From Tridacna crocea (lineage: Eukaryota; Mollusca; Bivalvia; Cardiida; Cardiidae), in contig OX031065.1 of NCBI GenBank assembly GCA_943736015.1, forward strand, positions 29,216,427 through 29,280,426: 64,000 bases of DNA, read 5' to 3'. Positions 3,274-63,408 of the stretch are shown one piece after another (within the stretch, counting starts at the first letter, position 1; every line of letters begins with the position of its first letter). Below the pieces are notes generated by a model that saw nothing but the letters and a program-made list of their open reading frames with translations, had not been told where the DNA came from and did not search any database. The position numbers and the translations under genes were made by a program.

Positions 3274-3502
3274 TTAACCCTTTACCCCATAAGGCATTTC
3301 TATGGTACCTCTGATTGACCCTCAATAACAGCAAGGATGAAGTCGTTTCTTATGTGTATATGACACCTTTTGATAGCATAGAAAACATTGTGACAAAAGG
3401 TGAAATTGCTCGTCACGAGCAATTTCACCTTTTGCCACAATGTTTTCCAAAGGCTCCTACAAGCAATGCGTAGAAATGAGTATCTATGGAGTAAAGGGTT
3501 AA
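3274..3502 (-). mobile_element. MITE B copy 1, complete
   Basis: Family B: TTAACCCTTTACCCCATAAG at one end, GGAGTAAAGGGTTAA at the other, 229 bp with TTAAs. The central palindrome (about 3378-3448) has arms TTGTGACAAAAGGTGAAATT / AATTTCACCTTTTGCCACAA. Confidence 0.9.
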
Positions 3503-4221: not shown

Positions 4222-4442
4222 TTAACTCTTTACCACACAATACCTACTTTTTACAACGCTGAGAAAGAGGCTTTTTGAAAACATAGTGGGAAAAGGGGAA
4301 AATGCTGGTAACCAGCATTTTCTCCTTTTCCTGCAATGTTTTCAACCAATTCAGGTAAATGTGCTATAAGTTGAAAAAGTTTGAATAATTGTCTGTAAAT
4401 TCCTCCAGTATGGATGGATTAAAACTTTTATTATGTGGTTAA
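4222..4442 (+). mobile_element. MITE A1, forward, decayed right half
   Basis: TTAACTCTTTACCACACAAT start and full palindrome; the right half is much diverged. Its right TTAA (4439-4442) is also the left TTAA of A2. Confidence 0.8.
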
Positions 4443-4667
4443 CTCTTTACCACACGAGAAAATTTTAGACCGGTCCAAATTGAAAGCATTTGCAGACGAC
4501 AAAATAAAGGTGACTGAAAAATTGAAATTTGTTCTAGAAAGGGTAGAAAACACTGTGGGAAAAGGAGAAAATGCTGGTTACCAGCATTTTCTCCTTTTCC
4601 CACAGTGTTTTCAAAAGGGTTCGTTGTCAGGGGCGTCAAAAGTAGGGATTGAGTGGTAATGGGTTAA
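4439..4667 (-). mobile_element. MITE A2, reverse, complete
   Basis: 229 bp with TTAAs. Palindrome arms carry ACACTGTGG / CCACAGTGT, a paired change relative to the common ACATTGTGG / CCACAATGT. Confidence 0.93.
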
Positions 4668-4896: not shown

Positions 4897-5128
4897 TTAA
4901 CCCTTAACCAAACAATTCTGATTTTTAATGACTCTGTTGAAAAAAACTTTTGAAAACATGGTGAGAAAATGCTGTAAACCAGTATTGTATTCTTTTCTCA
5001 CAATGTTTACTACCCTGTCAATTGCAAAGAAGTTTAATTTATATGTATCACTCTTGAAAATGTTGTCTGCATAAGCTTTCAATTTGGAAGAGTATAGATC
5101 TAGAATCCATTGTTTAGTAAATAATTAA
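4897..5128 (+). mobile_element. MITE A3, forward, complete but diverged
   Basis: TTAACCCTTAACCAAACAAT to GTTTAGTAAATAATTAA; its right TTAA is shared with A4. Confidence 0.85.
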
Positions 5129-5353
5129 CCCTTTACCACACAATCCCTACTTTTTACGACCCTGAGAAAGAAGCCTTTAGAAAACATTGTGGGAAAAGGA
5201 GAAAATGCTGGTAACCAGCATTTTCTCCTTTTCCCACAATCTTTTCTGCCCTTCACAAAACAAATTTCAAATTTTCGGTCACTTCTATCTTGTCGACTGC
5301 AAATGCTTTCAATATATACCAGTCTAAAATTTTCTTGTGTGGTAAAGAGTTAA
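5125..5353 (+). mobile_element. MITE A4, forward, complete
   Basis: 229 bp, close to consensus, starting in the same TTAA that ends A3, so A3-A4 are head to tail. Confidence 0.95.
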
Positions 5354-5539: not shown

Positions 5540-5769
5540 TTAACCCTTTACCTGATATGCCAATTTGAGGCTCTTCCAATTCAGCAGCAAATAAAGATCT
5601 GATGTCAAAAATATGGACAAATGAGGATATAAATATCTGATTGAGTGGAAAACATTGTGGGAAAAGGAGAAATTGCTCGTTATGAGCAATTTCTCCTTTT
5701 CCCACAATGTTTTCAAAAGCTGTCTGTTGTTGATACGTCAAAATGAGTATCTATGGAGTAAAGGGTTAA
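5540..5769 (-). mobile_element. MITE B copy 2, variant
   Basis: B-type right end (GAGTATCTATGGAGTAAAGG). Palindrome has B-type centre (TTGCTCGTTATGAGCAA) but A-type flanks (GGGAAAAGGAG / CTCCTTTTCCC), an intermediate between the families. Confidence 0.85.
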
Positions 5770-6205: not shown

Positions 6206-6750
6206 AGGTGGGTACTTAGAATTTTCACATCACACCAAATTAAAAAATATATATGTTATTGAAATTTATATGAAAAAACAATACAAATCATCAATAATTA
6301 GGAATCATAAAATTACAAAAAAAAATTTTTTTTGATGGTATTCCCTTAAAAGGCTACGTAGCCTCTTAAGCTATTTTTAGATTTGGTGCTAAAAATCAAT
6401 AAAGCAATATGGGAATGTCAAGTGACTGGCATGTGACTAATAACGCTTAAATTCCATTACATAACAAACGTGTAATAATTATTTTCCATAATGTCTTCTT
6501 CGGACGGATGTTTGGAGCTTTGTCTGTGTTTTCCTGTATTTAAATGAGAGAATTGATAATCTAAAAATAGAACATGTCACCCGTTGGTGTCAACCTGTTC
6601 TGTTATAAATCTCTAGTTTCTCGTGTTATCGGATGGTTTTCGACTGCTGTGGTTTTATGAACGCAAATTAAAAGGCTATGAGAGTATAAGGATGATTTTT
6701 TTTGCATTTTTGTAAAATTTTCGTCACAAAATCTGAAGGGCCACCTTTAA
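6202..6750 (+). mobile_element. Element C1, TTAA-flanked, about 549 bp
   Basis: Starts TTAAAGGTGGGTACTTAG and ends GGGCCACCTTTAA; short inverted ends AAAGGTGG/CCACCTTT. A second copy follows directly. It holds the uninterrupted site CCCTTAAAAGG (TTAA at 6346-6349) that is occupied in C2. Confidence 0.8.
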
Positions 6751-10051: not shown

Positions 10052-13000
10052 GTAGTTTTTTTTTGTAACATAAGGCTTTTAAAAAAAAAATCTGTAGAGG
10101 AATGAAATACTGTAACCAGTCGTGTCTCTGTTTCTGTACATCGTTTTAAGAAATGTAGGAAATTAATGAATTGTTTAGAACTAGTAATTTAACTGCTTGC
10201 CTCCTTATTTTTTTTTTTTTTAATATCACGAATCATTAACACTTTTCCACACAATCCCGACTTTTATGGACACTGGAAAAGAAGTTACCCACATTTTCTC
10301 TTTTTCCCACAATTTTTTAAAAAGACCTCTTCTACAGGTTCGTGAAAACCTGGGATCGTTTGGTAAAGGGTTAAAGAAAACATTGAGGTATTGTTGTAGC
10401 CTTTTCATTGTCATCTGCTTTTTGAAAATGCTAATTTTATGAAAGCAAAATCTCCAAAATTGTTTTAGTTTACCCTTTAGTTAACCAAACAATCCCTGGT
10501 TTTTATGACCCTGAAATAGAAGCCTTTTGAAAACATTGCAGGAAAAGGAAAAAATGTTGGTAACCAGCATTTTCTCCTTTTCCAGCATTCTTTTCTATCC
10601 TTTCCAAATCAAATTTCAATTTTTGAGTCAGGTTTATTTTGTCAACCGCAAGTGATTTCAATTGGACCAGTCTAAAATTTTGTCGTTTGGTAAAGGGTTT
10701 AGATGCATCAAAGGTGATGGTTTTTAACCCTTTACTCCACAGATACTCATTTTTACGCATTGCTTGTTGGAGCCTTTGGAAAACATTGTGAACAAAGGTG
10801 AAATTGCTCGTGACGAGCAATTTCACCTTTTGCCACAATGTTTTCTATGCTATCAAAGGTGTCATATACATATAAGAAACGGCTTCTTCCTTGCTGTTAT
10901 TTAGGGTCAATTAGAGATACCATAGAAATGCCTTATGGGGTAAAGGGTTAATGATATCATATTTTTCAGTGTAAAATTACAGTGGGAATAGATGTTCCGC
11001 TTCAGGGTAGGAAAACCTTAATTTTTCTTTTTTTAATTTTAGACAGTTATAATTAAGGAGGGAGGAGAGGTATATGAATATTGGCTAGATCCACCAGTCC
11101 CTATCTACTTACAAATATATATGTTCAATTTGACAAACAAAATGGAGTTTCTACAGGGAGAAAAACCTAGTCTAGTGCAGCATGGCCCTTACACATATAG
11201 GTACAGTATATCTCTTGTTTTGATTATATATATCAGAATTATGTATTCACCAACCATGCATTCTTAACACTTTGCCAGACGACAATATTTTAGGCTTGTC
11301 CAAATCGAAAGCATTTGCAGATGACAAAGTAAAGGTGACTGAAAATTTGAATTTTTCTGTGAAGAGTAGAAAACATTGTTGGAACTGGAGAAAATGCTGG
11401 TTACCACCATTGTCTCCTTTTCCCGCAATGTTTTCTAAAGGCTTCTTTCTCGGGGTTGTCAAAAGTAGAAATTGTGTGGCAATGGATTAAGGAATTCCAT
11501 TTTCAATTGTGTTTATATGCTGAGATGTCCAAAATTTTGATATATAGTAGAGAATGACTAACTTGAATAATAAAATTGGCTATTTTAACTCTTTACCACC
11601 CTAGGATATTTACTATGTGTCCAGATTTAAAAGAAATCAAGTGCTACTTACCGGTAAATGATGCCATTTGTCTCTGAAAGCATAGAAAAACATTGTGGGA
11701 GAAAAGGAGAAAATGCTAGTCACTGGCATTTTCTCCTTCTCTCACAATGTTTCTAAATGCTATTTTTGTCAGGGTTGTTTAAAGTAGGAAATGTTTTTAA
11801 AAGGATTAACTCTGTGAAAGTCACGGACAATTTTTCATTGGTGTTCAGGACATTACATTCAAGGTCAGACAACTATGTGTTTTTTCACATTTTTTTTTTC
11901 TCACATTATATCAGTGAGAGGCGGGTCAAGTTCAATATCACCTGGAACGATAATGGAACAGTATCATACAGACAGAAAAGAATCTTCCATTTTATTCCTG
12001 AAATGTCAAGTGGTTTGGAATCGGACATCTTTATTGTGCCAAATCCAGTTTACTGGGTAAAAAGATTTTCTTTCAAACTTTCCCAATCAACAATTTTTTT
12101 ACTCTTAAAAGAAAAATTAGATGTAGACTGCAAAACTGAAATTATTATAAATAAGTTGAAGTTTACCAGTGACAGAAAACATTGCAAGAAAAAAGGACAT
12201 GCTGTTTACAACGAATTTCTCTTTTTCCTACTACTGTTTAAAGCTTTCTTCTTCAGGGACATGAAACTTTGGAGTTGTTTGACCCTTGATGTGCTGCAAC
12301 AACTATATTTGTCTTTGCATCCAGTGTAGGTCAAGATCAGACTGCAGAGAATGTGCAGTCTGATCTTTAATCTACACTATCCTCTTTGCCAGGATATTCC
12401 GAACAAAAGGCACCCTTAACTCATTACCACACAATTACGACTTTTAACGACCCTGAGATAGAAGCCTTTTGAAAACATTGTAGGAAAAGAAGAAAATGCT
12501 GGTAACCAGAATTTTCTCCTTTTCCCACAATGTTTTCTACCCTGCTGGAAACAAATTTCAATTTTCGATTTTCTTTTAACTTGTCATCTGCAAATGCTTT
12601 CAATTTGGACCAGTCTAAAATGCTGTCGTTTGGTAAAGAGTTAAATGGTAAGAGTTTTGGAGCTATTTTCCACTTAAAATTATCTCTTGGGTGGGTTTTT
12701 TTTTTTCACACTAAGAGCTAAAGGGGGGCTAAGTTATGCTTAAGGTCATAAAAGTTCCAAATAGATAAACTCTTTAATAAACAACAAGTTTTTAGACTTG
12801 TCTAAATTGAAAGCATTTGCAGATGACAAAATAAATAAGGTTAAAAAAATCAAAGTTTGTTTTGGACGGGTAGAAAATATTGTGGGAAAAGGAGAAAATG
12901 CTGGTTACTAGCATTTTCTCCTTTTCCCACAGTATTTTCGAAAGGTTTCTTTCTCAGGGTCGTTAAAAGTCATGATTGTATGATAAGGGTTAACCCTTTA

Positions 13001-16000
13001 CCACAATATCCTGTGTGTTAGCAACTCTAGGAGAGAAATCTCTTTAACTCTTTACCACACAATCCCGACTTTTAACGACCCCGAGATAGAAGCCTTTTGA
13101 AAACATTGTGGGAAAAGGAGAAAATGCTGGTAACCAGCATTTTCTCCTTTTCCCACAATGTTTTCTACCCTTTCCAAATAAAAATTCAATTTTTCAGTCA
13201 CATTTGATTTGTTGTCTACAAATGCTTTCAATTTGGACCAGTCTAGAAATTTATCGTTTGGTAAAGAGTTAAAACATTTTGGGAAAAGGTGAAAATGCTT
13301 GTAATCAGTTTTTAGACTTGTCCAAATTAAAAGCATTTGCAGATGACAAAATAAACATAACTCAAAAATGGAAATTTGTTTGTGGGAAAAGGACAAATTG
13401 CAGCAATTTTTTCTCCTTTTCCCACAATGTTTTCAAGAGGCTTCTATCTCAAGGTAGTAAAAACCAGGGATTGTTTGAGACAGGGTTAACTCTTAATCAC
13501 ATAATCTTGATTCAAAACGACCCTGGGAAAGAAGCCTTTTGAAAACATTGTGGGAAAAGGAGAAAATGCTGGTAACCAGCATTTTCTCCTTTTCCCACAA
13601 TGCTTTCTAACCATCTCAAAACAAATTCAAATTTTTAGTCACTTCTATTTTTTGTCTGCAGATGTTTTCAATTTGGACCTGCCTAAAATTGTTTTATTGG
13701 TAAAGAGATAAGGAACTCCAGCTGAGTGTTGGCAACTGTTTTAATCTAAGGTCTCAGTATATGATTTGATTTTTTCCTTCCAGGCTCTATTTAAAGCTCT
13801 TCGTTATGAAGATCCAATAATTCGCGAGCTTATTGCGGCCCTAGGTGCCTTATTTGATGAACATCCATTGATGCAGCGTCCTTTGAAAGAGGTCATATGG
13901 GGCTACACAGACCCACTATTAAATATCACAAAGATCATTGACCCTGACTGGTTCTATACAGATAGAGTTGGATATTTTATGAATGTAAGTTGTGAAACAG
14001 CCATACATATTACATAAAAATTTGTTGTAACTCTTTACCTAACAACAAAATTTTAGACTCGTCCAATTGAAAGGATTTGCAGATGACAAATTAAATGTAA
14101 CTGAAATAATGATTTATGTTTTGGATGGGGAAGAAAATGTTGTGGGAAGTGGAGAAAATGCTGGTTACCAGCATTTTCTCCTTTTCCAAGAATGTTTTCA
14201 AAAGGCTTCTCATACAGGGGTGTTAAAAGTTGCGATTGTGTGGTACAGAGTTAAATTTATAACAGCCAACAAAAATTTTGTCTTGCCCCCATACTGAACA
14301 CATTTAGAAAGTTTCTGATGATGGAATAGGTCTTTAAAAGGGTAGAAAACATTGTGCAAAAAGGAGATGAATAATGGTTACCAGTATTTCTCCTTTTCTC
14401 GTAATGTTTTAAACTGTTTTAATGTTTGCCAAAGACAAATTGAATGCAGCCCAGATCATCGATGATATCGGTCTTTAACTCTTTACCACACACAACAAAA
14501 TTTTGGAATCGTCCAAATTGAAAGCAATTGCAGACGACAAAATAAACGTGAATCATAAATTGAAATTTGATTTGGAAAGGGAAGAAAACATTGTGGGAAA
14601 AGGAGAAAATGCTGGTTACCAGCATTTTCTCCTTTTTTCCACAATGTTTTCAAAAGCTTTCTCTTTCAGGGGTGTTTAAAGTCGGGATTGTGTGGTATGA
14701 ATAAACCACTTGGGCTATTGCCCTCAAGAATTATTTACTTTGCCTCATAATGATAGTGAATGATAAACCACCATAGAAAGAAGATAATTTCTCAGATTTA
14801 AACTCACACAGTCCTAAGTTTTAACAGCTGAGAGAGTCAGATACCTTAAGTTTTGATTAGACTGCATTGATGAAAAAGGGATTCAATTACATGTTTGTTT
14901 TTTTTTTTAACCAGAAAAATGACACAGATGATGGGGTCTACACTGTGTACACAGGAGCCACAGATATCAATAAACTTGGTGTTATTGATCAATATAATGG
15001 ATCCAAGTAAGGCTTTCAAACTTTACAAAACTCCTGTTGCAAACACAATGATGACTTTCAAATACCCTTGTATATTATTATGAAAATATTGTTTGGAAAT
15101 GTGACCAGTATTTTCTTTTGTTTCCCACAATGTTTTCCATGCTACCAAGGATAAATTTTGTCATTTGGGCCACTTTGAATATAGCATCAGCAAATGCTTT
15201 GAATTTGGACCAATCTGTAATTTTCTGGTCTGCTTTAACCCTTTCGCAAACAACCCCTGGTTTTTACGGGTCTGGAATAGTAGCCTTTTGAAAACATTGT
15301 GGGAAAAGTAGAAAATGCTGGTAACCAGCATTTTCTCCTTTTCCCACAATGTTTTCTACCCTATCATAGACAAAAATAATCTTTTCAGCAAGAGTTGAAT
15401 TGTCATCTGCAAATGCTTTCAATTTAGTCTAGTCCAAAAGTTTGTCGTTTGGGAAAGGGTTAAGGGTAAAGAACTTCCAGATCTGTGGTTTTTCAAAGTA
15501 TTGATTGTGGAAAAGGGAAATGCTTTAACAGAGCTTGGCTCTTTTGTATAGATCTAGATTATACTGGACTTGTTCTTTTGTTATAATTGCCCTAGCAGGC
15601 TTCTCCGACCCTACCAAAAGACTTTGTCCGCCACAGTATACATGTACTACCATACAAATCCAAAATTCTTTAGAATCAAATACCAATCTTCTATAATAGA
15701 AAATGATATAGATGATTCGGCCCAAACCACCTTTACCAGATACTTACAGCGGATACCATTTATATTCATTTGTATTTTTTATGATATCATAGTCAATAAA
15801 CAGTTTTTCCTTCAATCTGTCTTATTGTTCAATTTCAGATATTTAAATTTTTGGAGCACTGAATGGGCTAATATGGTGAATGGGTCAGGTAAGATATGAA
15901 ATATTGTTTGCTTAATCAATTATATTTTAGCACATCTGTGTACATTTACAACTTTTTGCACCCTTGATACATGTGAATTTGCAAAGCATTATTGAAAAAG

Positions 16001-22000: not shown

Positions 22001-25000
22001 CTGTGTCTGTCAAAGTGCTGGCGGGGGTATTAAGTCATATTCAGTGATAGCTCTAGTTTACTTAGTCACCCCAAATGTACCTTCAAAGTCTACATTTTGT
22101 CATGTGATTAAAAGTTAAACTCTTCACAGTCTGTCACTACTTTTGTCTTTCAGAGATACAGTTGGGATAACGCCTGTGCATTATCCAGTCTTTTGGTTGA
22201 ATGAGGTATGTGATGAGTTTATTTTACTGTTTGTGCTTTGTTTCTCTACTTTGTGCTCAACACTGTTATGAAGAGTAGTTTGTCTTTAAGCTTTGCTAGC
22301 TTATAGAATGCAAAGACTGTACTACAGTTTGAGCCAAATTCAATCTGCCCTCTGGACAAGTCTAAATTGTTGTTGTCCAGTAAAGGATTGAACCTTGGTG
22401 AACATTTTGGTTGAGCAATAAATGCTGGACACATAGCTTTGGTTAATTTTTTTAGGATGACCTTAGTTTGTCCCACTTTTTCAAGCAGATATGTATAACA
22501 GTTCTGCAGTAAAGGAATTGATGAAAACATTGAGAAAAAGGTAGATATTGTAGAAAAAGCAGCTATTGTGTATGTAGCCATTGTTTTCTTTTTTCAAAGT
22601 CAAGCCTCAGTAGCTCAGTCGGCAGCATGCAGGACTTGAGAACACGGAGTGCAGGGTTTGATCCCTGGCTAGGATCCCGGGCTCAGCCAATTTCTTTACG
22701 AGGATTGATGATAGTCAATGATTCATTCCTCTCCCACAGCATATTTCGATGATGATCGTGTGGGAAAGCAGCCAGTGGCTTGGAAAAAAAATTGTGTGAA
22801 GTACTGGTAACAGAAACTCCAGGAATGCATGGATAGGGTTCACTGGCCTCTGCAATACAACTGAAATAATGTTGAAAAAGGCGTTAAAAACCATAAATCA
22901 ATCAATCAATCAGTCACTCCTTTTTATAACACGTTTAGAAGCTTTCTACAGCAAGGATCAAAGACGTAATTTTATTGTAATGGTTTAACCTTTTACCACA
23001 CAATCCTTGTATAAATGGCCCTTAAGAAGAAGGCTGTTGAAAACTGTGGGAAAAGAAGAAAATGCTGGTGGCATTTTCCCCTTTTTCCACAATATTTTGT
23101 ACCCATTTTCAGCTTTTGAGCTATATTTAATTTGTGGTCTGAAAAAGCTTTCAAATAGGACTTTTCATGACTTTGTTCAACACAATTCAAATTTTAAACA
23201 GCCCAAAGAAAGACAGCCATTGAAATCATCAAAAAAAGAAAAAAAAAAAAGATAAAATGCTGGTTGCCAGCAGTTTTCTTTTTACACAATGTTTTTACTC
23301 TTTCATCAATTTAGCCAATGTTGAATTTTGATCTTCAATAGTTTTGAATTTCGTGGAGTCTGAAATTTTGTCATTTGAACAGAGTTTATTTCAAAGAAAT
23401 TCTAGTAAAGACTGAAATAGAATTGATGTCAGTCCCCGCCTCAGGAGGTACTTACCAGAACTGTTATGGAATGAGGTTCTATTTCCACAGTGTTTTAAGA
23501 AAGTCTCTTTTCTCATGTGAAGGAGTTGTTTCGAAATGGCTAATAGATTAGCTCTCTTTATTTTAGAGTGCTATGATAGACGATAAAAATGCGGAGAAGT
23601 TTTTCAAGATTTTGTTTACACCTCTTCTGGTCATTCACGTGTTAGAGGGCATTATAATTGGTCTCGGCTCTTTGTGTTTGATTTCTACTATCATATATGG
23701 TGTCATTTTACGATATAGGATGAATAAAGAGGTGAGCCGTATTTCCATACATTCCTACCAATTAACCCATTATGACACAATACCAAATTTTGACGACACT
23801 AAAGATCTTATGGAAAAAATGTGGGAAAAGGAAGAATATGCTTGTAACCAGCATGTTCTCCTTTTTCCCACAATATTTTCCACCCTTCTGAAGACAGGAT
23901 TTATCATTTTAGCTACATTTAATGCATTGTCTGTAAATGCTTTCAAACTGAAAAAGTTGACAGTTTTGTTGTTTGGTAAAGATTAAACCCTTTACCCCAT
24001 TAAGGTATTTCTATTGTCTCCCTAAATGACCCTAAATAAGAGCAAGGATGAAGCCGTTTCTTGTGTGTACATGACACCTTTTGATAGCATAGAAAACATT
24101 GTTGCAAAAGGTGAAATTGCTTGTCATGAGCAATTTCACCTTTTGCCGCAATGTTTTCCAAAGGCTCATACAAGCAATGCGTAGAAATGAATATCTCTGG
24201 AGTAAAGAGTTAAGCCTCACAAGAAAAGACAAGTTATAGTAGTGAAAGAAGTTATAGAATTTTACAGATCTTGTATAAAATTCATGTTGTATATACCAGA
24301 TGACAAAATTTTAGACTTTTGTTCGTTTTGAAAGTAATTGCAGACAACAAGTACAATGTGGCTGATATGACAAGATCTGCCTTTGGTTTCTAACACCTCT
24401 GCAATAATTTCCAAATAGAAAAACTGTGACAGCATATATAGACCTTAACTCTTTACTGAATGACAAAATGTAAGACTGGTCCAATTTTAAAGCATTTGCA
24501 GACGACAAACTATACGAAACTCAAAAAGTGAAATTTGTTTCCAGCAGGGTAGAGAACATTGTGGGAAAAGGAGAAAATGCTGGTTACCAACATTTTCTCC
24601 TTTTCCCACAATGTTTCCAAAAGGCTTCTTTCTCAGGGTCGGTAAAAGTAACCAGCATTTTCTCCTTTTCCCAAAATGTTTTCTAAAGGCTTCTTTGTCA
24701 GGGTCGTTAAAAGTCGAGATTTGTGGTAAAGAGTTAACCATTTACAACACAATCTTGAGTTTTAATGACCCTGAAAGGGAAGGCTTTTGAAAACATTGTG
24801 GAACAAGGAGAAAATGCTGGTAGCATTTTCTCGTTGTCCCACAATGTTCTCTACCCTGTCAGAGACACAAATTGTCATATGAATCTGCAAAATTGATGCT
24901 TTCACAATTTTGTTGTTCGGTAATAAGTTAAACAAGGATCACTGAATCATTTCCCACACTGTCCTGATGATTGGACTAAAGAGGCTTTTGAAAGTATCGA

Positions 25001-33300: not shown

Positions 33301-33529
33301 TTAACCCTTTCCCAAATGACAAACTTTTGGACTACACCAAATTGAAAGCATTTGCAGACAACAATTCAACTCTTGCTGAAAAGATGATTTCTGTCTATGA
33401 TAGGATAGAAAACATTGTGAGAAAAGGAGAAAATGCTGGTTACCAGCATTTTCTCCTTTTCCCACAATGTTTTCAAAAGGCTACTATTCCAGACCCGTAA
33501 AAACCAGGGATTGTTTGGGAAAGGGTTAA
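33301..33529 (-). mobile_element. MITE A49, reverse, complete
   Basis: 229 bp; CCCTTTCCCAAATGACAAAC and AACTCTTGCTGAAAAGATG mark the A22/A50 subfamily. Confidence 0.94.
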
Positions 33530-44400: not shown

Positions 44401-47400
44401 ATTTTTTGCCTTTCATGTTTGATTTTTTTTTTCTTAAATCAAAGAGACTTGTTTTGAACACTTTAAAACTGTTTGCAAATTATGTGTGTTTTCTCAAATT
44501 TATGTGCTTTTTAAATATGATGGGGGTTTTGTCCTAGGGGGCTTTTATCCTATGGGGGTTTTGTCCTAGGGGGGTTTTGTCCTGGGTTTTTTTGTCCTAC
44601 ACTCGAAATTTCAGTGCAGTATAATGATACAAAATGTAGATGTGTTAGGACAAAAAACAACCCTTAACTACCTATGCATGTTAAAAGTGACCTTTAAATA
44701 GTCAAAATTGTCAATGAATGCATATAAAACATGGAAGAAGAAAATGCTATTTACAAGCAATTTCTCCTTTTATCACAATGTTTTCAAAAACCTTCTTTCT
44801 CAAAGGCATGAAATGAAATTATTTTTGGGTAAATATTTAATCTGTTGCAAATACATGTAATAGACAATTTTCCAGTTACATTTGATATAAGTGATATTTC
44901 GTTGTTATTATTGTAAGCTGCGCACCAGAAGGATCATGTGACACCGGACAAACAAAGCATAATTTCAATGAGAAATGCTGTATGTCCCATTCGCAAATCC
45001 TTTAAATTTGGACAAATGTACAACTGAAAAAAAAAAAAGACATTCCAAGAAGTCTAAAGGTTATGAATTACCGTACTACACAATTTAAACATATTTTCTG
45101 ATATTGCTTATGAAACAAAAATAATCACGAACAGGCAAAATACATGCATGCATTTTATGAGATTGCATTGAAATATAGAGCATGTAGAGACTAAGAATGA
45201 ACTTACCCTCTGTAACCTGTATAAAATTCATAATACATGTACTGTCCACTAATGATCAACAAACAAGTAAATTGATATGAAACAAAGGATAAAAAGAGTC
45301 GGTTTAATGTGACACATGTGTGTTAATCTGTTCAAAGCAAGTACATTACAGCTCTTCTAAAGGTCACCCACCCTGCAGTGTGATACTGAGATCAAAGGAA
45401 CACCAAGTTATCCATTTACCCAATTTTATAAAACTTCATTAGACACATGTTTTTTAGATATGTACTCAAAATGAAGCTTGTATCAATATTTTGTGAAGAA
45501 GGCATGGAAGGTTTGAAAGATCTGAAGCCAGATTTGTTTTGTTCATACGAGCAGTTATTTATCAATTGGATATAAAGTTTCACAAAATTCCGTCCAATGG
45601 TATTGGAGATATTCACCTGGACGGATGGACAGCGATAAAACTATATCCCATAATAAAATGGAAAGCTTGCAACAAGCATTTTCTCCTGTTTCAACGATAT
45701 ATTTTTTTTTTTTTCCAAAGACAATTACAACAATTTGACCCAAGTTTATTTTATCGTCTCCATATGCTAAGTATCTGGACGAGTGCAAAGTGTTGTAGTT
45801 GGGTGAAAACACTCACTGTAACTATTTAAAAACTCTATACCACATAACCCAAGCTTTTTATAACCCTGAGAAATACAGTTTTAAGAAATGTTGTTGAAAA
45901 GGGAGAAAGTTCTGGTAACCAACCTTTCCTCTTTTTCCTTTGCAATTCTTCCTACAGAAAACTTCATTTTTTGAGTCACATTCAAATTGTTGTATGCAAA
46001 GGCTTTTAATTTGGGCATGCAAGTCTCAAATTGTTGTTTGGTTAAGAGTTAACCCTTTACTCCATAGATATTCATTTCTACGCATTGCTTGTAGGAGCCT
46101 TGGAAACATTGTGGCAAAAGGAGAAATTGTTCATGATGAGCAATTTCACCTTTTCCCACAATGTTTTCTATGCTATCAAAAGGTGTCATATACACAATAA
46201 GAAACAGCTTCATCCTTGCTGTTATTTAGGGTCAATTAGAGATACCATAGAAATGCCTTATGGGGTAAAGGTTAATGAAGATTCAGTGTTGTAAAAAATG
46301 GGGAAAATAATATTAATATAATTATGAGTAATAGACCTTTCCTATTCTATGTCTGAATGGTCAACAAATGTTTGATGAATTCCCTAGCTAAGTTTGTAAC
46401 ATACACTGGCTTGAAATCCAGGGATCTGTGGTTTGATTTATTCAAACTATGAAAGTGATAATTTTTCTTAAAAAAAAAAATAGTTCCAGTATTTGCAGAT
46501 AGACAGAGACAGTCTATTTACCAAAAACTGGGACATCATACATTTTATATTTACACGAAAATTCTGGTATTTACAGGTAATTGGCAAATGGTGTATTGTA
46601 GAAGAAAGCAAATAGCCAAAAGCTCTAATATATGTAAGAATCAAATGAAAACCAAAAAACTTGGTCATCCTCGTTTTTCCCACTACGTTTTCTACCCTTT
46701 CTAAGAAAGAAACCATCATTTGAGTTACATTTAACCCTTTACCACACAATGATGACTTTTAACGCCCCTGAAAGCGAAGGCTTTTGAAAGGCTTTTACCA
46801 ACATTTTCTCTTTTTCCCACAATGTTTTCTATACTTTCAAAGAAAAATAACTTCATAATTATGGGCCACATTGAAACTGTCATCTGCAAATGCTTTCAAG
46901 TTGGACAGGTCTAAAATTTTATCATGTGGTAAAGGGTAATTTGTAGTCTGCAGATGCTTTCAGTTTGGTCGATTTCAATATTTTCACTCTTTACCACACA
47001 AATCCAAGTTTTAACAACCCAGAAGGGGAAAGCTTTTGAAAACATTGTGGAAAAGGAGAAAATGCTGATAACAAGCATTTTCTCCTTTTCCCACAATGTT
47101 TTCCACCCAATCAAAGTAAAATTGCACCATTTGGGCATGACTGAAATTGTTGCCTGCGAATCTTTTCAATTTGGATAATGCTAAAATTTTGTTGTTTGGT
47201 AAAGGGCTAAACTGTTTCAACATTTAATCCACAATAGAATTTAAGCCGCAATAGAATTACCGTCTGCATCTTCTTTCAATTCCTTCTGGTACTGAAAATG
47301 TGGATGGAATCTCAGAATAGCGGGATCCTCTTATTTTCGAGTTTGTTATCATTAATCTTAAGAAGGAAAAATTCCATTCTGACAAAAATCAGTTGTAATA

Positions 47401-56400: not shown

Positions 56401-59400
56401 GCGATATCATTTGCCAGAACCATGAACAAGTTTCCAAGTCCCTGCCACCTGCAAGGTGGCAGCATGATTCACCACAAATGTGAACAAGTTTCCAATTCCC
56501 CTGTCACCTGCAAGGTGGTGACATGATTCACCAAAGCTGTGAACAAGTTTCCAAGTCCTTCCACCTGATCATACAACTTGTAATGTTACAGCCTTGTCAT
56601 CTGCATCTGTGCTGTTGTGTTAAGATGCATCATGATGTACCTCAATCATCACCATAGATATTCAACGCAAAAAAAAGTATACCCCTGCCACATAGCAATT
56701 CATTACCTAAAATGCAAGAGTTTAGGGTACATTATGTCATATTTCTCATTTTAGACAGGACTGCACATTAACCTTGGTAACTAGTGCATAGGAACTACTG
56801 TTTCCGCCTTCTATTGAAGAGTTGAAACATAAAATCGGTATTTTTCACTTGTCGTAACTATGGAATGTCAAAAATTATTTCATTGTTATATCTGGATAAA
56901 CTACTGGAAAGCATGAAATAAGATTTTCTATCCTTTAGCGTTTAGGTAACTAATTTTTCAAAGAACTTTAAACTTTCAGTCCCTTTTTTTTATGGCAACA
57001 AATATCATTGCAGTGATTTTTGAAGAAATGGGCAAGGCCTATATGGAGCATAAACATGAAATAAACAGCATTATCAAATCCATCCGCAGCCAGATTTGTG
57101 AAAAATGTGTAAGTATTCTATAGTCATTGTCTTCTGTGGCTCAATCTTTAACCTTTCACTTAATGACAATACTTTAGACAAGTCCAAATTTAAAGTATTT
57201 GCATAAGACAATTTAACACTTCACATGACAAAATTTTGGACAAGTCTAAATTGAACGTTTTCGCATCCGACAAATGTAATCTAGCTCAAATGATGAATAC
57301 TGTCTGTGATAGAGTAGAAAATATTGTAGAAAAAGAAGAAAAGTGCTGATTTCAAGTACTTCATTTTTTCAGTTACCATAATAAAATAACCTTGGGAAAA
57401 ACCCAAGGTTGTCAACAAGTAATTGGATATCGAATCGACAGATAAAAGATAGAAATGATGGCGATTTGTGAAAGAAATAGTTTAAATTTTCTCAAAGAAA
57501 AATTGAGATTACCAATCAAAATCCTTGATGAATAATTCATTCTCTTTTCGTCATGTGGTGTCAACGATTCTTTAAACATCTTCTCCTTAACTGCTTGGCC
57601 ACTTAGAATCATGCTTGGCTGGAATGTACCTCTGGAGGTCCTCTGTAAAAATGATTTCCATCAAAACTCTGGTTGCCATAGCAAAAAAATGGATTTTTCG
57701 GGGAAATTCTTTAAAAATCTTCTCTTCTGAAACTGCTTATCAGATTTTTAAATAAGTTCACAGAAATGTTTCTTAGGTGAGTGACCCTTTTCAAAAAGTC
57801 TTTATGGAATTTTGATCTGTCGCAAAACATGGCCATGGATGGGGGAGAGGCTCTTTTTTCGTTATGCGTTATCTATAACTGCTTTAAATTTGGACAAGTC
57901 TACATTTTTCTTGTGTGGTAAAGGGTTAATATTCATCAAAAGACTGCGTAGGTATTTTAATAAAAAGGGCTATTGCAGATGTCAGCCTATACCAGGTGTG
58001 GTCACTGGTGAGAAATGTTTATCAATATTCACCATTTCTACTTGATGTTTGTGATAGCTGTGTATTGCAAAAGGTAATATAAAACTGTTATCTTTGGAAT
58101 ACATGCATAGTATTTCACCAGTAACTGTTGTCAAAATGGCCTCTATCTGGGTGTTAACAGCCTTGTTGTTCACCATTTCTGTACTTTATGATGGAGTGTT
58201 CTCTGAATTCTATGAAAACTTTATATGCTGAATTCTGATTCATCAAAAACATGGCTGTGGTGATGATTTTAGGGGTACTGACAAATTTTGCAATGATACT
58301 TACTGGTGACCTTTTTAAAATTGCTTGGCAAAATAATGATTTTGTTTCCAAAATTTCAATACTTTAAAAAAGATTGCTGTGGTCCTGTCAAAAGTTCAGT
58401 GGAGCGATCCAGGGCTGTCTTTGCCCTCTTTTGTTGATTAACCTGGGCAGGCTGATCCAAGAGGACACTTTATGCAAATGTCTGAATGCCCCTTTTCGCA
58501 TGTTGCTGGTCAAATTAATTACTGCAGTAGTAAAACTTAAGCAATTTGGAAGCTGTGTAAACTTACATTCGAACTAAACACAATTGTTGTAATTAGCCCT
58601 TCATTTAATTTATAGATTTAGAAATTACATGCAGATTTTGAAAGGTTTGCCGCATGTGAATATTGGCCCTGATCTTGATCTACAGTCCACATTACCTTTT
58701 ACTTTTTTATTTACAGTCCACTTAAGCTACTTCAAAATTTAATGATATAATTCTTATATTTTAACCCTTTACCACACAATCCCTACTTTTGACACCCCCG
58801 AGAAAGAAGCCTTTTGAAAACACTGTGGTAAAAGGAGAAAATGCTGGTAACCAGCATTTTCTCCTTTTCCCACAGTGTTTTCTACCCTTCCCAGAACAAA
58901 TTTCAATTTTTCAGTCACCTTTATTTAGTCGTCTGCAAATGCGTTCAATTTGGACTGGTCTAAAATTTTCTAGTGTGGTAAAGAGTTTACAATTAATCCT
59001 TCTAGTGCCAAATATACTGTACTAAGTAAAACAGCTATCTGGACAGTATTTGAAATAAGATATTATCCATAAAAACAGACAAATTTTCATATAAAGGAAT
59101 CTCATTAGTTCGCATATTACTGGATTTAAACTTGTTTTAGGATAAAAAAGATCCCGTATACATTGACACAATGTACATAGATAATCAACTAGAAACAGAT
59201 CAGTTGAGTCTCATAGACAGACCAGAAGAGCTATCAGTTATGTTACCTTTGAAGCCTGTAGAAGAACAGCTATCAGAATTTAATGACAGAACAACTGCTA
59301 CAAAAAATGCAGGACCAACCAGTGGTTCCATATGGTAAATTATCATTTGTTACACTCTACTGTTACACATCAATAGATTTCAGGCTACAACTAATTATCT

Positions 59401-62400
59401 GGTTAAAAGGGATTTGGAATAATTATACTGTGTCAGTTTTTAGCTCCACTGGCCAAATGCCAGCGGGCTTATGTCATGGCCCTGTGTCCGTCGTGTGTTG
59501 GTGTGTGCATTAACTTTTATTTCAAGCATCTTCTTCTCTGAAACTACCCATCCAAATTTGATGAAACTTCACAGAAATGATCCTGCCATAGTCCTCTTCA
59601 GATTTTTTTTTTTAAAGAATTTGATTCCTTTTAAAAACTCTGGTTGCCACTGCAACAAAACTGAAAAGAAATTAACATTTTTAAAAATCTTCTTCTCTGA
59701 AACCAAAAGGCCCAGGGCTACTGAATTTGACATGTATCTTTATCTAATGGACCTTTAACAAGTTTCTTCATATCAGTGGCCTGGGGTCAAAATTGGCTCC
59801 ATTCCAGGGATCACAAGTTTAAAATGGGCTTCTATATACCGGTACATCGAAATGTTAATCAAGGGAAATAATTTTTAATAAAGGATAAAGTTTGTTACTA
59901 TTTACCTCCCTTGATTATCAAACTGCAGTGATACATGATTGGTGCTCGATATTAAGTTTTTTGATAGAAAATATATGTTTTCAGGAAGAGTGATTCATTT
60001 TGACACCAATAGTTATGCTCACATGAGTGGAATATCAAATTAAGAGTAAGGTTTCTATCATTTAGGTTTTTTTGCCAAGAACTTTAAATACCTTTCATGC
60101 CTATGAATTCACCTGCTTGTATTGCCTGACAGTGTTCAATGTTTTGGAAGGCCCTATTTTTCAGGGTCATGAACACTTCAGTTTGTGTGGTAAAGGGTTA
60201 AAAAGCCAGTTGAGCAATACAGGGCCATCATGGCCCTCTTGTTTTTTATGTGATACAAAATACCATCCATTGCATTTGCATGAAAGGAAATACAAAAGTT
60301 AGGGGTTGATTCTGTGACTTTTTAGGTAAACTTTTAGCTTGGGGGAAAACTTGAAACATTTAGCAGATCAAGATTTTTTGAGCAGTAAAACCAAGTAGGT
60401 ACTGGGTTGAAAAGTAGTGCTGGTCTGAGGGAAAAGTAGGTACTGGGTTGAAAAATAGTGCTGGTCTGAGGTCAGGGATGGACAATGGAAAGCTCCAACA
60501 GAAAATAAGAACAGACCTAGAGTTTTCAGCAGTGAGAAGACACAGAGTACAAAGATTGGGATAGGATCTTCTAACAAAATTGAAATGAAAGTTTCCTTTC
60601 ATGATGCAACCGTTCAACTGAGTTGCCTTGTAAGATGCCTTGCACAATCAAAATTTTTCCAAATTCCTGTTAGTCTGTATGATAATGCTAATTGTTTGAT
60701 TTTTGAACATTGTTCTTCAATTAAGGCTATGAGAGTAAAAGCAAATTTAAATGGTATGGTTTGTTTGGGGTCAGCTCTTTGCAGTGACTGAAAAAAGTAT
60801 GGACCTGCCTAAGTGTATTTCGGACCCATCTGTTATAAGGGCCAAAAGATCCCTCACCCAGCTACTTTTATTGCTTTCTCAGCCCCCCAGGAGATAACTT
60901 ATGGTCATAAGAGCATGAACAAAATGGATCTTGAGGCAAGATCTTGTGGGTCTTGTTTCAGCTGCTGTTTAGTGTTAAACTGTCATCCTCATGATGGAGA
61001 TTTTATTGTAAGAAAACACTGTACCTGTAAATTGTTGAGTGTTCGATCTCAGCTGTAACAAGGTTGTTTAACTCTTTACAACCATATCCCGAGTTCTGAT
61101 GGTCGTGAGAAAGAATCTGTATAAAAACAGCGTGGAAAAAGGAAAAAATGCAGGTAACCAGCATTTTCTGCTTTTTCCACAATATTTTCTACTCTTATGA
61201 AAAGAAATTGCAGTCTTTGAGTCCGATTTATTTTGTAGTCTGTAAATGCATTCATATTGGACCAGTCTAAAATTTTGTCATTTGGTTTAGAGATAAAATT
61301 GTCCAGACCAAAGTCACAGTGGTGTTGATGATTATTAACATTTCTAGGCTGACAATTGTTTTGTCTGCTTTTATCTGTCCTAGTTATTCCGCGGAACTAT
61401 CCTCCTGTAATGATAGAAAAAACCTTCCAAAAAGATATGGAAGTCTTGACATCAGCAGGTAGCAGGCTTGGGATTTATCTTACCAAATCTGCAATGTTAG
61501 AAATGGCCTTCAGATTCCTATCAATTGCTCTAACACTAATTTCAACCTGTGCTGCAACTGTTTGAACCTATTGGTATGCAAAGTGTAGTTGATGCAATAG
61601 ATGAAAGTGCAGCATATCTTTGGTTTCAAAATCCGGCGTTTAGCTCTACTAGCAGAAAGCAACCAGAGCTTTTTTCATTGCCTGGATTCCATTGTGTGTC
61701 CATCTGTTAGTCCTTTTCTGGTCTATGCGATGAAGTCTGTATTGTTGGTAAGAATATTTATCATTTGCTCAGACAAGTTCATAATTGTGTATGTCGGGTC
61801 AAAAACTAGGGGCACCTTGTCAAATCTTAAAAAATCTTGTATACACTCTTGAGGCCACATTATCAGAATAGTGATAAAAGTTGGTCAGCATATTTGTATT
61901 TGTGATATCTAAATTATGTTGGATGAATTTGGAAAAGGGTCATATTGTGTCAAAAGTAGGTCACCATGTCAAATCTTAAAAAAGTCTTGTGTACATGCCA
62001 GAGGCGACAATTTCAATTCAATATTCATGATAACTGGTTAGAATGTTTGTCTTGGTGATAGAGCTGTGAGAAATGGGTCATGTTGGGTCAGAAACTAGGT
62101 CATACCTTAGAGAATCATGATTACATGCTGGGGATTAGTATAGCCAAAGTTAGTGAAAATGTTTGTCTTGATGTTTAGGATGTGCTTTAGAAATTGTCAT
62201 GTTGAGTTAACCCATCACCACATAATCCCTACTTTTGACAACTCTGAGAAAGAAGCCTTTAGAAAACATTGTGGGAAATGGAGGAAATGCTGGTAACCAA
62301 CATTTTCTCCTTTTCCCACATGTTTTCTACCTTCACAAAGCAAATTTCAAATTTTCAGTCACTTTTATTTTGTTGTCTGCTAATGCTTTCGATTTGGACA

Positions 62401-63408
62401 AACCTAAAATATTGTTGTTTGGTAAGGAGTTAAAAAGTAGGTCACCAGGACAAATAGAAAAAGCATATGCACATTCTGGAGGCCACATTTTCAGTCCAGT
62501 TCTTATAAGACTTGATTAGAATGTTTTTTGATATCTCAGAGAGGTTTGAAACGAGTCTCATCTAGTCAAAACTATGTAAGGAACAAGTCTTAGAAAAACC
62601 ATGTGTGCATTGTTGAGGCCACAGTTTCAGTTTAAGAATGTTTGTCTTGATAACAGTGAGTTTTAAAGTGGGTCTTGTTGAGTCAAAAAGTTGGTCAATT
62701 AGAAAATCTTTGAAAAAGCTTATATTCACTCAAGAGGCCACATAATCTGCCCAGTACTCATAAAAGTTTGACAAAATCTCTTGGTATCTAAGAAGTGATC
62801 AAAAAAGTTGTGTTTGATAAAAAAGGTTCAAGTGAGCAATTTTACACTTGTCCAAATTCAAAGCACTTTTAACAGCAACATCAAAAACTTCCAAACACTG
62901 TTAGAAAAAGCAAAATGCTGGTTACCAGCATTGTTTCAAAAGCCTTCTTCTTGAGTTCTTCTGTTACCGTCAACCAGACAATGATCAAAAGTGAGAAAGG
63001 AATGCGCCCTTTTTCTGTGACAATCAATAGTCCTTTGAAAGAAACTAGCTGAATTGGGGATTTGAATTAGTGACTCCTTGGCTCAACTGCTGCATGCTAC
63101 TGACTACGCTAACAGGCTCCCCCATCGGGATAAATACTACTGTCGCTTGGAAGATGCCCAATATATTATCTTAAACAAGTACTGTAGAGCATAGGCATGT
63201 GATTTTTATGCGCCTTGTCATTCTTTTTAATGTAGTTTTCTCTACTTGCTCGAATTTATATTTCTAAAAAACAATATTTCAAGTATTCCCCAAGTACAAG
63301 ACAGAGTTACAGAAGATTCCAACTTGGAACATCTACAGCGGCTGAACATAGATGATAGCTCAACCAAAACCTCAGATGCACAATATGGCACAAACACAGG
63401 GCCAAAAG
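41320..63408 (+). CDS. RIPK-like: RIP-family protein kinase, 5' nine coding exons, gene continues past window
   Basis: Nine exons join in phase to 438 codons and run on beyond 63408. The kinase domain is whole: glycine loop GKGGYGQV (26-33), VAIK lysine K46, probable helix-C glutamate E65, hinge IEYM (95-98), catalytic loop HGDLKADN (140-147; D142, K144, N147), DFG (160-162), APE (190-192), DIYSFG (206-211) and CW.......RP (263-272). Order and wording (PPMFHGDLKADNIL, GGTLCHTAPERL, RPDLESLCSDCPEII) match the RIP kinases, which relay innate immune and cell-death signals. It is a non-RD kinase (HGD). Residues 277-438 form a hydrophilic linker without a recognised domain; an RHIM, death or other C-terminal domain would lie outside. 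The start is the first Met after in-frame TAG at 41299. Subfamily is unresolved. Confidence 0.88.
41502..41764 (+). mobile_element. MITE A55, forward, with short tandem duplication
   Basis: CTTTACCGCACAAACCTGAC is doubled near the left end; right flank TTAC. Begins 12 bp after kinase exon 1. Confidence 0.9.
42060..42225 (+). mobile_element. MITE A right-half fragment
   Basis: CTTTTCTACGTATATTTTG to GTAGACTGGTAAAGAGT, decayed. Confidence 0.5.
42461..42691 (+). mobile_element. MITE B copy 5, complete
   Basis: TTAACCCTTTACTCCATAGA to TTATGGGGTAAAGGGTTAA; palindrome nearly perfect. Confidence 0.94.
42951..43114 (+). CDS. RIPK-like: RIP kinase exon 2 (residues 57-112)
   Basis: Helix C (KELRREAERL) and the hinge strand (HYGLVIEYMHFGN). 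Acceptor TTTTGTTATAG, donor GTATGA. Confidence 0.9.
43205..43305 (+). repeat. Foldback F relative, single arm
   Basis: GGTCAGTTGGCAGGGGTCTT, TTCACGGCTGTGGTGAATCA and GAGCCGAAGGCGGGCAGCAT match the repeat at 27714. Confidence 0.7.
43702..43774 (-). tRNA. tRNA-Thr(CGU)-like sequence, probably SINE head or pseudogene
   Basis: 73 nt on the minus strand fold as a cloverleaf: GCTCAGTTGGTAGAG D arm, anticodon arm TATGA-CTCGTGA-TCATG (anticodon CGT), T arm ATGGG-TTCAATT-CCCAC. Two acceptor pairs and one T-stem pair mismatch and no terminator run follows, so a working tRNA gene is doubtful. Confidence 0.45.
43843..44612. mobile_element. Element K with minisatellite inverted ends
   Basis: Left end GAAATTTCGGGGTACGGAC followed by four to five CCTAGGACAAAACCCC units; right end has GGGGGTTTTGTCCTA units then GTCCTACACTCGAAATTTC, inverse of the left. 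Interior is AT-rich without a gene. Confidence 0.8.
44613..45640. other. Kinase intron 2, mostly unassigned
   Basis: Decayed reverse MITE A at about 44725-44825 (AGAAAATGCTATTTACAAGC / TTTCTCCTTTTATCACAATG). Remainder AT-rich with no clear repeat. Confidence 0.45.
45640..45806 (+). mobile_element. MITE A56, forward right half
   Basis: GCAACAAGCATTTTCTCC and TTTTATCGTCTCCATATGC; left end missing. Confidence 0.6.
45826..46052 (+). mobile_element. MITE A57, forward, diverged
   Basis: Begins AACTCTATACCACATAACC; right TTAA shared with B6. Confidence 0.8.
46049..46275 (+). mobile_element. MITE B copy 6
   Basis: TTAACCCTTTACTCCATAGA to TTATGGGGTAAAGGTTAA. Arms differ (left GGCAAAAGGAG, right CACCTTTTCCC), a mixed A/B palindrome. 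Confidence 0.92.
46660..46980 (+). mobile_element. MITE A58, forward, split by A59
   Basis: Right-half pieces CCCACTACGTTTTCTACCC (46679) and TTTGTAGTCTGCAGATGC (46940) abut A59 on either side. Confidence 0.75.
46731..46939 (+). mobile_element. MITE A59, forward, nested in A58
   Basis: TTAACCCTTTACCACACAAT to CATGTGGTAAAGGGTAA, internal deletion of the left arm. Confidence 0.88.
46982..47210 (+). mobile_element. MITE A60, forward, complete
   Basis: CACTCTTTACCACACAAATC to TTGTTTGGTAAAGGGCTAA; flanks TTCA/CTAA. Confidence 0.88.
47211..47690. other. End of kinase intron 2
   Basis: A small (CATC/CATA) microsatellite at 47452-47482. Pyrimidine-rich tract before exon 3. Confidence 0.45.
47691..47827 (+). 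CDS. RIPK-like: RIP kinase exon 3 (residues 112-157)
   Basis: Catalytic-loop exon: MKHLHSFTPPMFHGDLKADN. An upstream CTGAACAG acceptor would put a stop in frame, so TCTATTTCAG at 47690 is chosen; it restores the phase exactly. Confidence 0.9.
47846..47945 (+). mobile_element. MITE A61 fragment
   Basis: TTCTTTACCAAACAATCTG and AAAACACTTTTGGAAAAGGAG. Confidence 0.65.
47946..48710. other. Kinase intron 3, no feature seen
   Basis: AT-rich; an inverted pair around CCCATGACGGTGCC is not convincing. Confidence 0.4.
48711..48915 (+). CDS. RIPK-like: RIP kinase exon 4 (residues 158-226)
   Basis: Begins VCDFGLSEW (DFG), runs through the activation segment to TAPERL (APE) and DIYSFGITVWELFAGERPY. Activation segment has T and S residues (TTSQMMT) that could be phosphorylated. 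Confidence 0.93.
48935..49080 (+). mobile_element. MITE A62, forward, right end lost
   Basis: CACTTTACCAAACAATCTTG, GGCATTTTCTCTTTTATTTAG; decayed palindrome. Confidence 0.7.
49260..51400 (+). repeat. Tandem array D3, 13 units of about 159 bp
   Basis: Thirteen AGCTTTGATATTTGG-type marks between about 49417 and 51325. Each unit also has TTCTTCTCT(A/G)AAACTAGAAGG, GTGGACC(T/A)CTACCAAGTTTG and GGGTCACAAGTTC. Same family as D1 and D2. Confidence 0.9.
51525..51674 (+). CDS. RIPK-like: RIP kinase exon 5 (residues 226-276)
   Basis: C-lobe end: EGQRPDLESLCSDCPEII and ISKCWHQDGLKRPEFDG. Closes the kinase domain. Confidence 0.92.
51697..51925 (+). mobile_element. MITE A63, forward
   Basis: ATAATTCTTCACTGTGCAAT to TTTGTTTGATAAAGAATTTA; terminal tetramers decayed. 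22 bp after kinase exon 5. Confidence 0.8.
52245..52440 (-). mobile_element. MITE A64, reverse, decayed
   Basis: ATAATTTTAGACTGGACCAA, GAAAACATTGTGAAAAAAGG / TTTTCTCCTTTTTCAACAAT. Confidence 0.7.
52530..52860 (+). mobile_element. MITE A65 and a further fragment, decayed
   Basis: CATGACCCCATGAGAGAAAT, CTTGAAATGCTTTCAAGTTG, then a second start CACGAGTTCTGACAACCTTG at 52797. Confidence 0.5.
52861..54360. other. No recognised gene
   Basis: Open frame 53099-53530 (143 codons) lacks known motifs and lies inside candidate element T. GTGTAC/GTACAC-rich short repeats around 54190-54320. Confidence 0.4.
55110..55368 (+). mobile_element. tRNA-derived SINE copy 3, old
   Basis: GTGATTAGCATATTTAAC head trace; GTGTGAGAAAGCCAGGAAA and ATATGACCTAAGC match copy 2 at 20080. 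Confidence 0.68.
55885..56575. repeat. Satellite of about 62 bp, about 11 units
   Basis: Each unit reads like GATTCACCA(G/C)AGCTGTGAAC, AAGTTTCCAAGTCCC and TGCCACCTG(C/G). It is built from one arm of foldback F (27714). Unit lengths vary and some units are cut. Confidence 0.92.
56576..57013. other. Kinase intron 5 end, no feature
   Basis: Unique-looking AT-rich DNA ahead of exon 6. Confidence 0.45.
57014..57108 (+). CDS. RIPK-like: RIP kinase exon 6 (residues 276-307)
   Basis: Charged helical segment (EEMGKAYMEHKHEIN, SIRSQICEKC) following the domain, similar in position to the post-kinase helix of RIPKs. Acceptor ATATCATTGCAG, donor GTAAGT. Confidence 0.8.
57148..57380 (-). mobile_element. 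MITE A66/A67, reverse, end duplicated
   Basis: TTAACCTTTCACTTAATGAC, then a second start TTAACACTTCACATGACAAA 62 bp on; the GACAAGTC(C/T)AAATT block is present twice. Confidence 0.65.
57391..57413. repeat. Small perfect hairpin
   Basis: AACCTTGGG-AAAAA-CCCAAGGTT; 9 bp arms, no known role in this setting. Confidence 0.6.
57600..58440. mobile_element. Repeat D relative
   Basis: TCTGGTTGCCATAGCAA, AATCTTCTCTTCTGAAACTGC near 57670-57735; ends CAGTGGAGCGATCCAGGGC at 58397. MITE A right end CTTGTGTGGTAAAGGGTTAA lies within at 57910-57929. Confidence 0.55.
58761..58989 (+). mobile_element. MITE A69, forward, complete
   Basis: 229 bp; paired ACACTGTGG / CCACAGTGT arms as in A2 and A34; right flank TTTA. 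Confidence 0.93.
59141..59334 (+). CDS. RIPK-like: RIP kinase exon 7 (residues 308-372)
   Basis: Acidic linker (DPVYIDTMYIDNQLETD, PLKPVEEQLSEF). No known domain. Supported by open frame, acceptor ACTTGTTTTAG, donor GTAAAT and phase. Confidence 0.75.
59438..60246 (+). mobile_element. Repeat D2 with 3' hairpin
   Basis: Starts TTAGCTCCACTGGCCAAATG, ends GCCAGTTGAGCAATACAGGG and GGGCCATCATGGCCCTCTTG. A MITE A right end (GTTTGTGTGGTAAAGGGTTAA, to 60201) lies inside. Confidence 0.65.
60389..60475. repeat. Two-unit tandem repeat, about 40-44 bp
   Basis: AAGTAGGTACTGGGTTGAAAA and TAGTGCTGGTCTGAGG occur twice in succession. Confidence 0.8.
60476..61067. other. Kinase intron 7, no feature seen
   Basis: Short open frames at 60585-60791 and 60813-61058 lack splice context or known motifs. 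Confidence 0.4.
61068..61296 (+). mobile_element. MITE A71, forward, complete
   Basis: 229 bp; left TTAA, right ATAA. 87 bp upstream of kinase exon 8. Confidence 0.92.
61384..61458 (+). CDS. RIPK-like: RIP kinase exon 8 (residues 372-397)
   Basis: Reads YSAELSSCNDRKNLPKRYG. Acceptor CTTTTATCTGTCCTAG is strong; phase 2 to 2 fits both neighbours. Confidence 0.68.
61610..62830 (+). repeat. Tandem array G1, about 150-170 bp unit, with A72 inserted
   Basis: Head GCGTTTAGCTCTACTAGCAG with inverse GAGCTTTTTT, then units with GGTCA..AAAACTAGGTCA, AAATCTTA.AAAA, GAGGCCACA, CAGAATGTTTGTCTTGAT. Confidence 0.82.
62207..62433 (+). mobile_element. MITE A72, forward, complete, inside array G1
   Basis: TTAACCCATCACCACATAAT to GTTTGGTAAGGAGTTAA; the array unit rejoins as GTTGAGTTAAAAAGTAGG. 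Confidence 0.93.
62823..63000 (-). mobile_element. MITE A73, reverse, decayed
   Basis: CACTTGTCCAAATTCAAAGC, AAAATGCTGGTTACCAGCAT; right arm shortened. Confidence 0.7.
63045..63125 (-). mobile_element. tRNA-like SINE head
   Basis: Minus strand TAGCGTAGTCAGTAGC (box A-like) and ATTCAAATCCCC (box B-like) about 45 nt apart. Confidence 0.5.
63284..63408 (+). CDS. RIPK-like: RIP kinase exon 9 (residues 397-439)
   Basis: Reads SIPQVQDRVTEDSNLEHLQR then DDSSTKTSDAQYG; polar linker. Acceptor CAATATTTCAAG is modest; donor GTAGCT. Ends one base into codon 439; the next exon lies beyond the window. Confidence 0.6.

Follow-up and report, generated by a model that had tools for sequence, protein, structure and literature searches.

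Template-switch copying from one arm of an inverted repeat into the other goes by the name of quasipalindrome homogenisation. Template switching is described as homogenising the arms of inverted repeats and as being able to invert the spacer between them (PMC8604942, PMC8794818). A second set of described systems consists of the piggyBac-like MITEs, whose hallmark is given as terminal inverted repeats beginning with CC[C/T]T (PMC2872659). Judged by their sequence, the elements reported here are most likely non-autonomous MITEs of this piggyBac-like kind, and it is the coral CMITEs of Acropora that they resemble most closely (PMC2872659). They contain a long palindrome in which changes in one arm are in part matched in the other. 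Compensatory change is usually taken as proof of a needed structure. The reading favoured here, with some reserve, is instead that, in this piggyBac-like MITE, sequence is now and then copied from one arm into the other, probably through template switching, and that a few homogenised versions founded families.

Structure and abundance of the elements

Direct reading and alignment of the window (the whole 64,000-nucleotide stretch of Tridacna crocea DNA analysed) give for family A a TTAA-ended element of 229 bp with an internal odd palindrome of 67 bp around a 1-nt centre. Its left end reads TTAACYCTTTACCACAC, its palindrome GAAAACATTGTGGGAAAAGGAGAAAATGCTGGT-A-ACCAGC..., and the ends of the family A and B elements are TTAACCCTTTACC; in family A they form inverted terminal repeats. 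The palindrome is far beyond chance: the DNA-fold z-scores of three window copies are -15.67, -14.19, and -12.39, and none of 200 shuffles folded as well in any of them. The initial annotation had given families A and B the same length of 229 bp, the same ends, and the same palindrome position; ends and position are indeed common to both, and the length becomes 228–229 bp, the family B model having 228. It had also reported that the arm differences between the families are each matched in the opposite arm. With pairs numbered outward from the palindrome centre (k), and with a family B arm consensus written by hand from the window copies, four pairs differ (k=3, 8, 13, and 20), and all four are paired, each as a complement swap (G:C to C:G or A:T to T:A). 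Table 1 lists the copies.

Table 1. Element copies and their variants in the window
Feature	Coordinates	Strand	Remarks
Family A copy, full length	13044..13272	+	palindrome at 13099-13165
67-bp odd palindrome, A state, perfect	13099..13165	.	DNA fold -38.1 kcal/mol, z -15.67
Family A copy	4439..4667	-	ACAC/GTGT paired variant (k=26), perfectly paired, founder lineage
Family A copy	25228..25456	+	k=26 paired variant, one-sided at k=20
Family A copy	58761..58989	+	k=26 paired variant, one-sided at k=20
Family A copy	5125..5353	+	
Family A copy	33301..33529	-	
Family A copy	62207..62433	+	right end of reported range
AB copy	5541..5769	-	outer arm A, inner arm B, both arms changed; unpaired k=2; stem 5648-5714
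Family B copy	3275..3502	-	
Family B copy	10724..10950	+	
Family B copy	23986..24213	-	
Family B copy	42461..42690	+	hairpin stem 42516-42583, one bulged base
Family B copy	46049..46273	+	half-changed k=13 and k=20, one-sided k=5, paired change k=2

The assignment to piggyBac-like MITEs rests on several features. Exact TTAA stands at both ends in 31 of the 32 copies aligned over both ends, as a target-site duplication would leave it, and the left end continues as CCCT, CTCT, CCCA, or CTCA in 29 of the 32, so that some copies deviate from the CC[C/T]T hallmark. The elements are short (228–229 bp) and very numerous. In addition, the piggyBac transposase domain PF13843 is matched at least 118 times in the genome. 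Many of these matches are free of stops, and some score identically, suggesting recent copies.

The genome searched comprises 1,048,827,098 bases in 31 contigs, the first 18 of which measure 40–77 Mb. An 11-mer from the arm has 640,695 occurrences in it, both strands counted, and the reversed-pattern control has 1,396. A core pattern spanning the inner 35 positions, in which the centre and three pairs may vary freely, has 222,317 matches; the first 100 of these, read by eye, are 80 A, 10 B, 3 AB, and 7 that are one-sided at the free pairs. A sample of 294 kb was also taken, consisting of the window and 23 fixed-position pieces of 10 kb, and A-profile alignments cover 15.8% of it. Their density is higher in the window, with 99 in 64 kb (59 copies there have a core), than in the rest of the sample, with 181 in 230 kb.

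Other arrangements were seen in the same material. Two of the 10-kb pieces, L017 and L019, contain tandem arrays (unit lengths about 1.64 kb and 1.85 kb) in which every unit holds one diverged A-like element. In L015, A copies occur in oppositely oriented pairs whose members overlap at a common TTAA (6371-6823 and 7225-7675). Five matches to the arm 11-mer lie about 143 bases apart at 26429-27013 of contig C1 (G000), possibly an element-derived satellite. A palindrome scan of the 294 kb found 161 palindromes, of which sequence words assign 115 to A or B and 46 to neither; several unrelated long palindrome families are present, in L011, L012, L014, L016, L020, L025, L031, and others. One of these other families, family D, shows at least two Watson-Crick types at 12 of 31 pairs among 13 copies, which were picked by palindromy, so that paired variation like that described here is suggestive only.

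One-sided decay and inherited variants

Once a copy has inserted, a change in one arm usually has no counterpart in the other. Among 136 family A copies (147 minus 11 B-like ones, the tandem copies of L017 and L019 being collapsed to one each), pairs 1–33 contain 557 one-sided cells, 61 complementary double cells, and 40 non-complementary ones; pairs k=34 and 35 lie outside the 67-bp palindrome and were excluded. Without pairs 26 and 14, the doubles divide into 38 complementary and 38 non-complementary, and this sample of 136 copies gives no complement-specific signal at the remaining pairs. Several positions are unpaired in many single copies. Since one-sided cells dominate and individual copies have several unpaired positions, pairing of the hairpin is not maintained in each individual copy, and in-situ selection for the hairpin was rejected as the main cause of the paired changes because of this dominance. 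Independent substitution in the two arms, which the initial annotation had named as an outcome that would speak against its interpretation, thus describes most of what happens after insertion, though not the excess at pairs 12 and 5 that is set out below.

Some paired variants are inherited. The ACAC/GTGT variant at k=26 is real in the three window copies for which it had been reported (4439, 25228, and 58761), two of which have the further one-sided change entered in Table 1, and it is a founder lineage: the flank identity among its 13 carriers is 0.825 as against 0.732 to other copies, none of 2000 random sets was as tight, and the nearest flank neighbour of a carrier is another carrier in 9 of the 13. 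The initial annotation's second reservation, that paired variants might trace to few founders, therefore applies to this example. Likewise, A, AB, and B are inherited families with different flanks. Judged by its double sites, pair 10 looks like another founder: it has 281 of them, and among the first 50 of these 44 are complementary, 41 being of one type. Paired A:T variants were also seen at k=14 (6 carriers), k=20 (4 carriers), and k=3 (3 carriers); their carriers have no common flanks, and these variants were set down to chance in old copies.

Two window copies had been singled out as transitional. The first, placed at 5540, is an intermediate as described, with both arms changed together, yet it is unpaired at k=2. 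The second, the family B copy at 46049, is half-changed, as had been said, at two pairs, and it has two further changes, one of them paired. The half-changed state at k=13 recurs in an AB-like copy at position 6862 of L016; these copies are possibly intermediates or mosaics.

Such variants invite the explanation that inheritance is all there is: two successive mutations in a source element, of which only well-paired forms amplify, would be spread by transposition, with no copying between arms. The k=26 lineage, the founder-like pair 10, and the separate families A, AB, and B all agree with it. So does the comparison of the two families, the arms agreeing at 58 of 66 consensus positions and the flanks, compared between the A consensus and a single B copy, matching at 83 of 160. 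The same can be said of the slower divergence of the core, which reaches 7.7% among related copies against 13.9% in the flanks (918 copy pairs, CpG excluded). Among the 23 youngest copy pairs the gap narrows to 4.2% against 5.6%, and the slower divergence of the core is for this reason not used here as evidence for correction. What inheritance predicts for variants that distinguish no family can be compared with the counts at individual pairs.

Double changes at pairs 12 and 5

Three non-diagnostic pairs (12, 5, and 10) were examined genome-wide in the A background. At pair 12, 173,858 sites are unchanged, 3,686 and 3,748 are changed on one side or the other, and 432 are changed on both, where independence expects 79.5. 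Part of this surplus is heterogeneity among copies. An unpaired control, which joins the left position of pair 12 with the right position of pair 5, gave 146 and 147 joint changes against 75 and 80 expected, a factor of 1.88 that raises the expectation for double changes at pair 12 to 150. Pair 5 has 249 double sites against 143 expected, with 3,718 and 3,554 one-sided ones.

The doubles are mostly complementary. Among the first 50 double sites in genome order, which are not a random draw, 36 of those at pair 12 (from 432) are complementary where 20.2 are expected (fraction 0.404; p 8e-6), and 30 of those at pair 5 (from 249; expected fraction 0.433; p 0.02), the expectation being taken from the one-sided spectrum. 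Scaled up and set against the unpaired control, this amounts at pair 12 to about 311 complementary doubles versus 61 and about 121 non-complementary ones versus 89; at pair 5 the figures are about 149 versus 62 and about 100 versus 81. The non-complementary doubles also exceed the control, which may thus understate heterogeneity. A harsher rescaling by these non-complementary doubles leaves about 311 versus about 82 at pair 12 and about 149 versus about 76 at pair 5. Complementary doubles are thereby shown to exceed both independence and the unpaired control at pairs 12 and 5. They are rare all the same, at about 311 against 7,434 one-sided changes for pair 12 and about 149 against 7,272 for pair 5, and the excess corresponds to 3.4% and 1.2% of the one-sided changes, respectively.

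The types of paired change bear on how they arose. Two independent mutations should yield the square of the one-sided spectrum, and a single mutation copied across should follow that spectrum linearly. The paired types at pair 12 (18, 11, and 7) fit the linear expectation (p 0.46) and reject the square (p 0.0007); those at pair 5 (19, 6, and 5) also fit the linear one (p 0.89), the square being marginal (p 0.059). Inheritance through two successive source mutations predicts the squared spectrum, and it fares accordingly at the two pairs.

The flanks of the carriers were also compared. For pair 12, sixty sites were fetched, namely all 50 double sites on the list and 10 of the 100 one-sided ones listed, and the flank test used 28 of the 36 complementary carriers, the rest having too few core or flank columns. 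Tandem-array copies were excluded from the background of this test, as they were from the comparison of centres and outer pairs and from the k=26 and divergence analyses. In none of the 28 carriers is the nearest flank neighbour of the same type (with one tie to three decimals), and the flank identity within a type is 0.692 versus 0.679 (shuffle p 0.108). The same nearest-neighbour measure does detect the k=26 lineage. Compared with the background, the carriers have moved further from the consensus (median flank identity to it 0.791 versus 0.817), which limits the power of the test for old lineages. The paired changes at pair 12 are likely recurrent, with many origins; one founder for all paired variants was rejected at pair 12 by this test, and the initial annotation's reservation about few founders probably does not extend to these dispersed carriers. 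Given the missing flank clustering and the spectra, an account by inheritance alone, with no copying between arms, seems rather unlikely.

Two further features of the fetched copies were considered. A centre T was found in 8 of the 36 fetched pair-12 carriers, against 1 of 38 inner-perfect copies and 10 of 134 sample copies, which looked like spacer inversion tied to the paired changes. An orientation-specific count for one paired type, with 3 T and 34 A (3 of 37) and no matched baseline, did not confirm it. Outer pairs are changed in a paired manner at 10 of 535 pairs in carriers versus 3 of 569, a borderline difference (p 0.05); the centre and outer comparison used 13 of the 14 non-complementary pair-12 copies.

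Proposed arm-to-arm copying, its alternatives, and known systems

The complement-specific excess, together with the dispersal of the flanks at pair 12, supports low-rate copying from arm to arm. A mutation in one arm would occasionally be copied into the other, most likely by a polymerase switching template at a transient hairpin or cruciform, at a rate that would make paired changes about 1–3% of one-sided ones. A possible alternative is that a cruciform is extruded and mismatch repair within it homogenises the arms. A few homogenised versions may later have become source elements, namely AB, B, and the k=26 variant; most paired differences in the window would then be inherited and not local. 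The initial annotation had offered two interpretations, a needed hairpin or one arm copying the other. The second gains from the counts at pairs 12 and 5, in the form of low-rate copying, and no result here establishes a need for the hairpin.

That need would have meant a hairpin functional in each copy, as a hairpin RNA, a source of small RNAs, or a cruciform, with selection restoring its pairing. The very stable fold, the conservation of the arms between families, and the paired variation of family D, as selected, would suit such a function, but for every paired change there are about 24 one-sided ones at pair 12 and 49 at pair 5, many copies have several unpaired positions, and a single Rfam family, a tRNA, is matched once in the window at the gathering threshold (43702-43774, minus strand), at a place off the elements. 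It is therefore very improbable that function in each copy maintains the pairs. Just as improbable is a dimeric protein site, for example for a transposase, whose half-sites change together as the specificity of the source evolves: paired cysteine-rich domains of piggyBac-type transposases are described as binding short palindromes (PMC11707139), and many of the PF13843 matches in this genome have no internal stop, but the palindromes in that account are 14–19 bp long against 67 bp here, and such a site would leave unaccounted for the paired variants of pairs 12 and 5, which are rare and dispersed.

If the arms do copy each other at a low rate, a broader and more doubtful proposal can be built on it. 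A long palindrome would be partly self-copying: hairpins formed in replication or transposition would turn single mutations into paired ones, homogenised versions would found families, and palindromes would persist as a by-product, possibly because the hairpin or cruciform aids amplification, and not through selection on each copy. We regard this as unlikely in its full extent; if true, several unrelated palindromic families of the same genome would behave alike. What arm-to-arm copying suggests more directly is that paired changes, at the low rate estimated above, arise without a demonstrated function, which provides a yardstick for covariation arguments. The huge copy number of a single palindrome makes it feasible to separate inheritance, independent decay, and copying between arms, and offers a way to gauge template switching in an animal genome.

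Both the TTAA class of MITEs and template-switch homogenisation are already known; for paired arm changes in such an element, no prior report was found in the titles and opening abstracts of the literature searched. With the piggyBac superfamily the elements share the TTAA ends, the CCCT-type termini of many copies, and a genome containing PF13843. They differ from it in being 229 bp long. With the coral CMITEs they share TTAA duplications, ends of the CC[C/T]T type in part of the copies, short non-coding sequence, a piggyBac-like link, tandem arrays, and an internal region that varies less from family to family than the ends do (PMC2872659). The CMITEs are nevertheless only about 100 bp long, with an internal region of 75 bases and an estimated 1,600 copies or so, whereas the elements described here have 229 bp, a 67-bp palindrome, and 222,317 core matches; the terms palindrom, hairpin, and compensat did not occur in a term search of that paper (PMC2872659). 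Finally, the paired changes resemble quasipalindrome homogenisation, in that one arm of an inverted repeat templates the other and a single event can give complementary changes (PMC8604942, PMC8794818; see also PMC3820800, PMC7202029). Those reports concern yeast genes, RNA stems, or reporters, whereas arm-to-arm copying is approached here statistically, from dispersed copies of an element.
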